A stretch of DNA of 64,000 nt from Nocardia farcinica (lineage in GTDB: Bacteria > Actinomycetota > Actinomycetes > Mycobacteriales > Mycobacteriaceae). The notes beneath the pieces are model-generated. The model was given only the letters and a program-made list of their open reading frames with translations. It was not told the origin of the DNA and did no database searches. The stretch covers positions 2,170,001 through 2,234,000 of the forward strand of contig NZ_LN868938.1 of assembly GCF_001182745.1 (NCBI RefSeq), written 5' to 3'. The position numbers and the translations under genes are program-made. Of the stretch, positions 27,583-32,037 are shown one piece after another. Position 1 is the stretch's first letter, and every line of letters begins with the position of its first letter.

Positions 27583-28116
27583 GTGTCGACCACCCCGCGC
27601 GCGCTGCTGCGCAGCCAGTTCGAGCTGACCTGGGCACTGGCCGAGGTCCACCTCGATCCGCTCACCGACGACGACGCGCACTTCGCGCCCGCCGAGCTGA
27701 TCTGGACAGTACACCGCGGCCCGGACGACCACTGGCGGCCGGACTGGGCCGACACCGAACCCGACCCGATCCCGGTGCCCACCATCGCCTGGCTCACCTG
27801 GCACATCGACTGGTGGTGGAGCAGCGCGCTGGCGCACGTGCGCGGGCGCGAACCGGCGCCCCGCGACCAGGTCCACTGGGCGGGCAGCGCGGCGGCGGCG
27901 GTGGCCCGGCTGCGCGAGCTGCACGCGGCCTGGACGGAGTGGCTGGGCACCGACGAGGTGGACCTGGAGGCGCCCTCGGCCTACCCGTGGCCCGCCGAGG
28001 CCGGGCTCACCGTGGCGCACACCGCGGCGTGGGTGAACGCGGAACTGATGAAGAACGTCGCGGAGATCGGGCAGCTGCGGTTGCTGCGGGCGGCGCGGCT
28101 AGCCTGTCGTCCATGA
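27583..28116 (+). CDS. DinB-superfamily protein
   Basis: 177 aa four-helix-bundle protein starting with GTG at 27583. The N-terminal helix RSQFELTWALAEVHLDPLTDD, the middle IAWLTWHIDWWWSSALAHV and the C-terminal AHTAAWVNAELMKNVAEIG place metal-ligand histidines as in the DinB/YfiT family. These act as thiol- or other small-molecule transferases, for example with mycothiol, or in damage responses. Divergent from infC. Its stop overlaps the next start (ATGA), so it is coupled to the DUF1844 gene. Confidence 0.75.
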   Translation: MSTTPRALLRSQFELTWALAEVHLDPLTDDDAHFAPAELIWTVHRGPDDHWRPDWADTEPDPIPVPTIAWLTWHIDWWWSSALAHVRGREPAPRDQVHWAGSAAAAVARLRELHAAWTEWLGTDEVDLEAPSAYPWPAEAGLTVAHTAAWVNAELMKNVAEIGQLRLLRAARLACRP

Positions 28117-28454
28117 CTGACGAGCTCGATGATTCCGTGCGCGAACTGGCCGACATTCCCGCGGTCGAGGTGATCAGCCGCGCGGCCGTGATGCTGATGA
28201 GTTCGGCGGCAGAGAAGCTGGGGCTCGCCGACGAGGACCCGGACAACAGCCCGCGCAAGGATCTGGACGAGGCGCGCCGGGTGATCACGGCGCTGGCCGG
28301 GCTGGTGACCGCGTCGGTGGAATATCTGGGGCCGCACGCGGGGCCGATCCGCGACGGGCTGCAATCGCTGCAGCGGGCCTTCCGGGAGGCTTCGGCGCAT
28401 CCCGACGAGCCGGGCAAGGGACCGGGCGAGAAGTACACCGGACCCGTCTACTGA
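28113..28454 (+). CDS. DUF1844-family protein
   Basis: 113 aa. Begins with an acidic stretch, then VRELADIPAVEVISRAAVMLMSSAAEKLGL and DLDEARRVITALAGLVTAS, which fits DUF1844; the conserved order is a helix pair followed by a Leu-rich region. The family has no established function. It overlaps the DinB gene by 4 bp, and in mycobacteria a similar small gene also neighbours uvrA. Followed by a terminator at 28463. Confidence 0.82.
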   Translation: MTDELDDSVRELADIPAVEVISRAAVMLMSSAAEKLGLADEDPDNSPRKDLDEARRVITALAGLVTASVEYLGPHAGPIRDGLQSLQRAFREASAHPDEPGKGPGEKYTGPVY

Positions 28455-28462
28455 ACCGAAGC

Positions 28463-28493
28463 GGGCGGGGCGGCCTCGTGAGCAGCCCCGCCC
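28463..28493. terminator. Terminator after DUF1844 gene
   Basis: Perfect 9-bp stem GGGCGGGGC (28463-28471) with GCCCCGCCC (28485-28493), 9 bp past the DUF1844 stop. It also lies just past the stop of the convergent 35-aa gene, so it can serve both directions. Confidence 0.7.
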
Positions 28494-28499
28494 GGCGGG

Positions 28500-28607
28500 T
28501 CACACCGTCGGGATGGGCGGGGGCGTGACCGAGATCGAGGAGCCCGAGGCGAGCATGTTCGCCAGGGCGGTGAGCAGGCTGCCGAGGCCGGCGCTTCCGG
28601 TGTCCAT
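28500..28607 (-). CDS. 35-residue micro-protein B of a tandem pair
   Basis: ATG at 28607 with an AAAGGAA ribosome site ten bases upstream. The protein starts MDTGSAGLGSLLTALANMLA, then SGSSISVTPPPIPTV. It has an acidic second residue, an amphipathic Leu/Ala helix, the tetrad SGSS followed by I, and a proline-rich end. It has no signal peptide and no cysteine. It lies 31 bp after micro-protein A, which shares the acidic start, helix and GSS-I pattern and an identical AAAGGAA ribosome site. Tandem short leaderless acidic peptides recall the corynebacterial PorA/PorH channel formers; that link is only a hypothesis. Confidence 0.72.
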   Translation of the reverse strand: MDTGSAGLGSLLTALANMLASGSSISVTPPPIPTV

Positions 28608-28638
28608 GGGTGGTCGTTCCTTTCGTGGGGGAACCCGC

Positions 28639-28734
28639 TCAGGCGGGCGAGCCCGGGATGTAGTTGATCGACGAGCCGCTGCCCAGGAACCCGAGAACCA
28701 TCTCGAGGATGGCGGCGATGTCCACGCCCTCCAT
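28639..28734 (-). CDS. 31-residue micro-protein A of a tandem pair
   Basis: ATG at 28734, with AAAGGAA eight bases upstream, an excellent site. Reads MEGVDIAAILEMVLGFLG, then SGSSINYIPGSPA, and stops at 28639. A 14-residue hydrophobic helix flanked by two acidic residues is followed by the SGSSI motif, also present in micro-protein B. Codon choice is typical (GCC, CTC, ATC). It is the first gene of the pair and has its own 5' region between 28735 and 28951, separated from uvrA by a strong terminator, so it is an independent unit. Function unknown. Confidence 0.74.
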   Translation of the reverse strand: MEGVDIAAILEMVLGFLGSGSSINYIPGSPA

Positions 28735-28754: not shown

Positions 28755-28876
28755 CCCCGGCCACCGTCACCGGGGTGGAGCTCGGTCGAGACACCCCCGC
28801 GCACGGCGCCGGGTCCGTTTACCGCGACTGTCCGGAACGATCCCGGACACGGTGAGCCGATCTTACACATCAGCAT
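28755..28876 (-). promoter_or_regulatory. Leader and promoter region of the micro-protein pair
   Basis: On the minus strand a TAAGAT -10-like hexamer lies near 28862 in GTGTAAGATCG. Two hairpins follow: TGTCCGG/CCGGACA at about 28829-28849 and CCCCGG/CCGGGG at 28755-28760 and 28770-28775, the latter about 10 bases upstream of the ribosome site of micro-protein A. The leader would be about 120 nt and could be regulated. Confidence 0.45.
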
Positions 28877-28951
28877 TTCACTTTCGCCCGGTTTGTCGGC
28901 GGGGTCGATCCGATCCGCCGCGTCCGGCATCCGCCCACCGGACGGCGAACA

Positions 28952-28989
28952 CCGGCGGCCCGGCACACCGTCGTGTACCGGGCCGCCGG
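28952..28989 (-). terminator. Strong terminator after uvrA
   Basis: Perfect 12-bp stem, CCGGCGGCCCGG (28952-28963) with its complement at 28978-28989 and a 14-base loop, 21 bp beyond the uvrA stop. Confidence 0.8.
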
Positions 28990-29010
28990 AACGGGCTCGC
29001 GGGCGGCGCG

Positions 29011-32037
<3,027 letters not shown>

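Follow-up and report, generated by a model that had tools for sequence, protein, structure and literature searches.

The PorA and PorH proteins of Corynebacterium glutamicum (45 and 57 amino acids) are O-mycoloylated and form a hetero-oligomeric channel. PorACj and PorACur, the smallest known corynebacterial channels, are reported as helical, homo-oligomeric proteins of 40 residues (~4 kDa) that lack a presequence and are encoded at the groEL2-PPK2 locus (PMC3792995, PMC5944148). ProtX of C. glutamicum is described as a signal-less protein of unknown function that is mycoloylated at its penultimate Ser37 (PMC5310785, PMC12632848). NfpA, NfpB and other MspA-type channel proteins of Nocardia and Rhodococcus are given as MspA-related, of about 20 kDa and with a Sec signal (PMC5310785, PMC9233653, PMC5944148). 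O-mycoloylation has been linked to mycomembrane targeting and is carried out by Cmt1/MytC in C. glutamicum; orthologues of mytC/cmt1 have also been described from Nocardia and Rhodococcus (PMC11066868, PMC5310785). The O-mycoloylated residues listed for C. glutamicum are for the most part serines with Gly, Ala and Ser around them, and a strict consensus is described as absent (PMC11066868). Surface assembly of PorH is said to need PorA, with at least one of these two proteins mycoloylated, and the same study calls the export route of PorH unknown (PMC12632848). It likewise presents the arrival and retention of mycomembrane proteins as an open question, studied mainly with C. glutamicum PorA, PorH and ProtX (PMC12632848).

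We analysed two neighbouring micro-genes, pep1 and pep2, in a 64-kb stretch of Nocardia farcinica DNA (hereafter the window). Like porA and porH, they are tandem, co-oriented and very small, and their products lack a signal peptide and are helical (AF2 prediction for pep1). Unlike PorA and PorH, they encode only 31-35 residues in which a GS(S) turn directly follows a short helix, show no profile similarity to those proteins, and lie at uvrA or an NRPS instead of groEL2-PPK2. ProtX comes closest in size and kind, being signal-less and acylated on a serine near the C-terminus, and PorACj and PorACur share the helical character and the missing presequence but differ in locus and in homo-oligomeric assembly; both likenesses are drawn from published descriptions. 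NfpA and NfpB resemble the pair in that neighbouring genes of the same genus encode two proteins that act together. We rejected an MspA-type porin as an identity for the pair, whose products of 31 and 35 amino acids have neither a Sec signal nor the ~200-residue MspA domain. In the literature that we could search (titles and abstracts, with subscription papers largely outside reach), no description of these peptides was found.

Results

Two tandem micro-ORFs of 31 and 35 amino acids had been proposed in an earlier note on this DNA. Both are present at the places it gave (Table 1), and their conservation in related genomes confirms them; both lie on the minus strand, which that note had not stated. 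The 31-bp gap between the genes, the acidic second residue (Glu in pep1, Asp in pep2) and the SGSSI common to both peptides were borne out as well. The predicted ribosome site AAAGGAA does precede both ATGs, at distances of 7 and 9 bases instead of the 8-10 claimed, and across 47 distinct pep2-class ORFs a ribosome-site core lies 5-12 nt before the start. The proposed own leader found support in a promoter block, AAGTGAAAC-N4-GTGTGTAAGATC, that is well kept, if not letter for letter, across 20 aligned uvrA-linked loci; the whole block matches once in the 64-kb window, against 0.01 matches expected in shuffles. Downstream of this block stands a palindrome, found in degenerate form in several relatives, which from its sequence and place is a possible candidate for an operator or a leader hairpin. 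Where a terminator had been assigned to each side of the pair, there is a real hairpin on both sides, but the T-run expected of a textbook terminator is missing from both. The nearest neighbours of the pair in the window are the uvrA, DUF1844, DinB_2 and IF3 genes, with no RiPP-type modification enzymes among them. The C-terminal part of uvrA was matched in 117 of 118 genomes of the genus.

Table 1. Positions of the micro-genes, their signals and neighbours in the window, and of module-bearing frames at other loci (L numbers).
Feature	Position	Strand	Basis or remark
pep2	28500..28607	-	35-aa micro-protein MDTGSAGLGSLLTALANMLASGSSISVTPPPIPTV; translation
pep2 ribosome site AAAGGAA	28617..28623	-	sequence
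pep1	28639..28734	-	31-aa micro-protein MEGVDIAAILEMVLGFLGSGSSINYIPGSPA; translation
pep1 ribosome site AAAGGAA	28742..28748	-	sequence; majority form among 20 aligned uvrA-linked loci, GAAAGGAA
Leader palindrome TGTCCGG-N7-CCGGACA	28829..28849	-	one exact match in window
-10-like TAAGAT (within TGTGTAAGATC)	28860..28865	-	alignment of 20 uvrA-linked loci
Upstream promoter element AAGTGAAA, conserved	28876..28883	-	alignment of 20 uvrA-linked loci
Strong terminator-like hairpin between uvrA and pair	28952..28989	-	fold of 28945-28996, -42.1 kcal/mol, z -5.15
Hairpin between pair and DUF1844 gene	28462..28494	.	fold of 28455-28500, -32 kcal/mol, z -3.03
uvrA, upstream neighbour	29011..32037	-	ORF; UvrA domains PF17760, PF17755
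DUF1844 gene, convergent, outside the system	28113..28454	+	Pfam PF08899
G006 fusion frame	L142 3275-4270	+	ends in pep1 module
G006 fusion frame	L143 4051-5115	-	ends in pep1 module
Window-genome module proteins	L135 2823-3206, 3398-3676	+	A4 profile (pep2/pep3 search) matches one, E 1.9e-4

Each peptide is laid out as a short acidic start, a hydrophobic or amphipathic helix of ~13-15 residues, a GS turn and a short tail of Ser, Thr and Pro. Lys and Arg are absent from both window peptides, and by inspection neither has a signal sequence, the start being acidic and a basic n-region lacking. AF2, run for pep1 only, predicted a helix at residues 6-18 with a mean pLDDT of 80. The GS after the helix is invariant in all 18 pep1 rows (alignment A1) and GS on both sides of the helix in all 18 pep2 rows (alignment A2). 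The pep2-class peptides contain almost no charged residues. Profile-profile comparison of the pep1 and pep2 families gave a probability of 91.5, which supports their homology. Whether the helix is amphipathic, as had been claimed, depends by shuffle P on the segment chosen: the window's own helices gave P 0.046 (pep1, residues 5-18) and P <0.001 (pep2, residues 7-20), but the 14 residues that precede GS in the same peptides gave 0.64 and 0.34, a measure that reached P <0.05 in 9 of 12 pep1 and 8 of 9 pep2 relatives tested.

We cast this design as a filter for frames of 24-60 aa that start with ATG behind a ribosome site, contain no Cys and few basic residues, and have a hydrophobic stretch preceding GS[SAT]. 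Two of the 39 micro-ORFs with ATG and ribosome site in the window passed it, pep1 and pep2 themselves, and none passed in 20 second-order Markov resamples of the window; the filter was defined after the family had been seen, and its chance rate comes from the window and these resamples. Pfam and NCBIfam held no usable family for the peptides: pep2 had a chance-level match to STAS_2 in Pfam, and one of 16 pep1 members matched NF058668 weakly (E 0.022). No solved relative was found in the PDB, and all Rfam matches were sub-threshold, with none at gathering score. The remark that such genes are too short for routine gene callers holds in part, several relatives having been deposited as 'hypothetical protein' of Nocardia species.

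If neither frame had been conserved in related genomes, the proposal of two genes would have failed; both are clearly conserved. Profile searches at E<=0.01 found relatives of pep1 in 57 of 118 same-genus genomes and of pep2/pep3 in 58 (weakly in G006 and G042), while a single-sequence pep2 search reached 69 at E<=1, many of these matches being weak. Since pep1 is undetectable in 61 of the 118 genomes, its function is dispensable. Order is fully kept, with pep1 ahead of pep2 on one strand in 57 of 57 genomes that have both. The gap between them is 24-63 bp in 50 of 51 loci; in the 51st (L123) pep2 starts with TTG, a start that the gap measurement did not accept. The gap is 24-31 bp in 24 uvrA-linked loci (including L043 and L044 from outside the 118, with the UvrA end seen) and 25-63 bp in 26 NRPS-linked loci. 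Diversity at codon positions 1, 2 and 3 is 0.33, 0.27 and 0.42 in pep1 and 0.34, 0.19 and 0.43 in pep2, so that second positions vary least and third positions most. We relied on this pattern instead of on pN/pS, whose values of 0.47-0.67 come from saturated pairs and are weak evidence. Strong matches were confined to the genus among 301 genomes of the family (31 genera), where the best extra-genus matches had E 3.7e-3 for pep2 and E 9.4e-4 for pep1. Deposited relatives formed 58 and 41 clusters (E<=0.1), from Nocardia wherever an organism was named. Of eight loci with weak extra-genus matches to the A3/A2 profiles, seven (L049, L200-L203, L206, L207) were discarded as lying inside or against other frames, and L199 alone was kept.

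The pair has two genomic homes. It stands directly behind uvrA in 29 of the 57 peptide-bearing genomes, and in the other 28 (loci L105, L115-L124, L141, L144-L159) the upstream DNA always carries, on the strand of the pair, an NRPS-like frame or, in G002 and G073, a thioesterase match. An MbtH-like gene accompanies it in 26 of these 28, none being seen in G085 and G091. MbtH, NRPS, GroEL, PPK2 and UvrA were recognised by motif patterns, and Pfam confirmed MbtH for three genes and PPK2 for two. Two layouts occur: NRPS, pep1, pep2, mbtH, and NRPS, mbtH, pep1, pep2, pep3. The third gene, pep3 (e.g. MFSGSMVNDLFATLAKMLGTGSSYTFPPQA), accompanies the pair in 15 of the 28 NRPS-linked genomes as well as in G244, a genome from beyond the 118; in the uvrA-linked loci examined, a search with the pep3 profile gave no third gene. 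Pfam identified condensation, adenylation and carrier domains in six frames of five (partial) loci and in L116, whose NRPS reads A-T-C-A-T-TE over 1880 scanned residues, and a thioesterase in all scanned NRPS frames except the split frames of G055. The tails of 11 of these NRPSs share about 49-76% mutual identity. At the G055 locus (L155 1-4855, +) the NRPS is divided between two frames, neither with a thioesterase, and the last of them runs into pep1.

The window's own genome also contains a large NRPS followed by MbtH (G000:C2 ~1394000-1421300, L136), with no peptides there; its thioesterase and that of G102 are 62% identical. Peptides were likewise missing from the NRPS 3' ends in nine regions of uvrA type (L161-L169) and in eleven genomes free of peptides (L170-L180). 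Conversely, no uvrA-linked copies were found in 29 same-genus genomes in which the pair is not placed there (ten of these uvrA regions are from NRPS-type genomes, and one runs for only 453 bases to the contig end), and in other genera the pair was behind uvrA in 0 of 20 cases. A tree of concatenated pep1 and pep2 was rejected as a guide to the ancestral location, many nodes having low support and the uvrA-linked rows not forming one clade. Judged by gene order, the link to the NRPS is strong in the genomes that have it; the pair also exists without an NRPS.

The helix-GSS module also occurs inside larger proteins. In N. stercoris (G006, matched by protein identity), it makes up the last ~20 residues of two larger frames, built of a signal-like start, an Ig-like Big_3_5 domain, a Thr-rich linker and an end such as ...FDYGAMLTQVLTFLGAGSSINYHP. 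This tail is likely homologous to pep1, judging from its match to the A3 pep1 profile (E 1.3e-10). An AF2 model of the fusion protein made without an alignment had a mean pLDDT of 43 and was discarded. Among the best 21 of 90 hits for the fusion protein (P0101-P0121), one of them the query, the pep1 module forms the end of 3, and the other 18, from Nocardia and Rhodococcus, finish in a different GS-hydrophobic-GS element (e.g. GSLGSLLGGFGSSK); the pattern for this count was written after the tails had been read, and it scored P0103 as 'other' although its tail is of pep1 type. The pep1 module thus stands where a surface-attachment tail would. Two small proteins encoded side by side in the window's genome have signal-like starts and contain 3 and 2 GS-helix-GS modules. 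By sequence, these other module-bearing proteins may be homologues or look-alikes. The NRPS link and the reuse of the module as a protein tail go beyond the earlier note.

We also compared the pair with micro-genes beside PPK2, the porA/porH neighbour in Corynebacterium according to PMC5944148 and PMC3792995. The best extra-genus pep1 match is a free 30-aa ORF in G171, MSSDLDFTAILALILGALGTGSSDNAGVPA, the second of two micro-genes behind PPK2; about 0.3 matches at its E of 9.4e-4 would be expected by chance over the 301 genomes. The PPK2 of G171 groups with those of Rhodococcoides and R. fascians-like Rhodococcus, and the 30-aa Rhodococcoides-type peptide is supported because it is repeated in related genomes and has the tandem layout. 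A profile-profile comparison of the 30-aa pair of g6 with pep1 gave a probability of 88.5. With a filter set after the peptides had been seen and applied to the PPK2 strand only, design-type micro-proteins flanked PPK2 in 14 of 18 Rhodococcoides-type loci, a group set apart, by PPK2 identity and record title, among the 80 loci returned. The same filter gave 0 of 9 loci in Corynebacterium, 0 of 9 in other Rhodococcus/Antrihabitans, 0 of 13 in Mycobacterium, 0 of 6 in Gordonia/Tsukamurella/Segniliparus and 0 of 25 in genera without mycolic acids (Streptomyces, Arthrobacter, others). Longer micro-ORFs with the look of PorH/PorA flank PPK2 in 4 of 6 genomes of genus g3, taken for Corynebacterium, and in 3 of the 4 named Corynebacterium loci that were read, in agreement with the published locus (PMC5944148, PMC3792995).

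The earlier note had seen a likeness to PorA/PorH in design only. The shared layout is backed by the PPK2-flanking micro-genes, while membership of the PorA or PorH family finds no support in sequence or place. The A3 pep1 profile scored an hhalign probability of 0.2 against four PorA-like ORFs, and the A4 profile one of 0.3 against two PorH-like ORFs and two Rhodococcoides-type sequences, small sets recognised by place and look rather than by annotation. The pair does not stand at groEL2-PPK2, its neighbours being uvrA or an NRPS, and no PPK2 of this type was found at 1e-30 in the window's genome and six sampled genomes of the genus. By these comparisons, the link to PorA/PorH is one of layout and neighbourhood, not of sequence.

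Discussion

The GSS motif, the helix and the pattern of O-mycoloylation in C. glutamicum together lead us to see in the pair micro-proteins of the mycomembrane that are probably attached through a helix and an acylated serine. By analogy, pep1 and pep2 would be signal-less mycomembrane micro-proteins held by their helix and probably by serine O-mycoloylation, a reading to which we give a probability of roughly 0.55. We take the two genes to be paralogous and their products to belong to the cell surface; their translation, export, acylation and assembly we infer. The peptides would be made in the cytoplasm from their own promoter and would pass through the inner membrane in the same, as yet unexplained, way as PorA, PorH and ProtX. 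A mycoloyltransferase of the MytC/Cmt1 type would then O-acylate a serine of the acceptor-like GSS motif, and helix and mycoloyl chain together would hold the peptides in the mycomembrane, where the two kinds, or three in other species, may assemble together. In its favour we count the conservation, order and spacing of the pair with its codon-position pattern, the module at the end of exported-looking proteins in N. stercoris and its repeats in two proteins of the window's genome, the design-type micro-proteins beside PPK2 at Rhodococcoides-type loci but at none of the 25 loci without mycolic acids, and the acceptor serines known from C. glutamicum. Against it weigh the missing sequence link to PorA or PorH, the absence of a Pfam or NCBIfam family and of a solved relative, the 0.3 chance matches expected for the Rhodococcoides-type peptide, the zero counts of the design at the PPK2 of Corynebacterium, Mycobacterium and the other groups, the 61 genomes with no detectable pep1, and the lack of a strict acylation consensus. 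The naturally occurring fusions favour attachment as the module's basic property.

A hetero-oligomeric pore like that of PorA/PorH, in which two or three helical peptides would form a water-filled channel through the mycomembrane, seems to us unlikely. It would fit a tandem paralogous pair of helical peptides without signal peptides, as well as the design-type micro-genes beside PPK2 in Rhodococcoides-type loci, and PorACj is reported to form a channel alone with 40 amino acids (PMC3792995). The predicted 13-residue helix of pep1, however, would span ~20 Å by arithmetic, against ~34 Å for the modelled PorA/PorH pore and a mycomembrane given as 50-80 Å thick (PMC12632848), the pep2-class peptides offer almost no charged residues for a lumen, and Nocardia farcinica is described as already having the channels NfpA/NfpB (PMC5310785, PMC5944148). 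Somewhat more doubtful is that the peptides are accessories of the adjoining NRPS, helping to display, export or anchor its product; that this product is a lipopeptide is a guess. The gene order of the 28 non-uvrA genomes speaks for such a role, and so does the window's genome, which has that kind of NRPS with MbtH and lacks the peptides there. A related thioesterase (E<1e-70) occurs in 51 of 57 peptide-bearing against 25 of 61 peptide-free genomes, counts that are raw with respect to kinship and paralogues and were obtained with a query from a peptide-bearing genome. Yet those 25 peptide-free genomes retain a similar thioesterase, and 29 of the 57 have the pair behind uvrA.

We regard it as very improbable that the products are secreted membrane-active peptides, such as a two-peptide bacteriocin or modulin-like peptides, or a type I toxin. 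It would suit them that the genes are tandem, have their own promoter and encode small hydrophobic helices, but no recognisable immunity, transporter or modification gene adjoins the pair in the window, its two peptides have no Lys or Arg, and the same module serves as the tail of larger proteins. That the region is non-coding, its ORFs having arisen by chance in a small RNA or an untranslated leader, is scarcely credible: the strong hairpins on both sides and the conserved promoter block would agree with it, but the protein is conserved while the DNA changes, with ribosome sites and a coding-type codon-position pattern, no Rfam family reaches its gathering score, and homologous modules lie within larger proteins.

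Beyond the reading of the pair as attached mycomembrane micro-proteins, we propose, tentatively and with rather less confidence, that Nocardia and Rhodococcoides have an unrecognised class of such signal-less proteins, in which the GS-helix-GS(S) unit would be a portable attachment module, free-standing, fused or repeated, and part of an NRPS operon in half of the Nocardia genomes with the peptides. If so, the portable unit occurs as tandem pairs or trios, as the C-terminal tail of exported Ig-like proteins and as repeats in Sec-exported proteins, and its place in NRPS operons would link a coat of ribosomally made micro-proteins with an envelope peptide of nonribosomal origin, a new connection between the two kinds of product. 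A second independent set of signal-less micro-proteins in Nocardia and Rhodococcoides, with its invariant acceptor-like motif and its natural fusions, would give a comparative handle on the export route, the acylation signal and anchoring, and the short module sequence would be testable as a mycomembrane tag.

Two minor observations were made along the way. The PPK2 flanks of Rhodococcoides type (L264-L277) carry arrays of signal-less micro-genes on both sides, including a well-kept 37-aa type of the form MGSAA...SGSAA. In G042, one protein (L160 4632-5621, -) has a C-terminal region with many GSS/GSA repeats.
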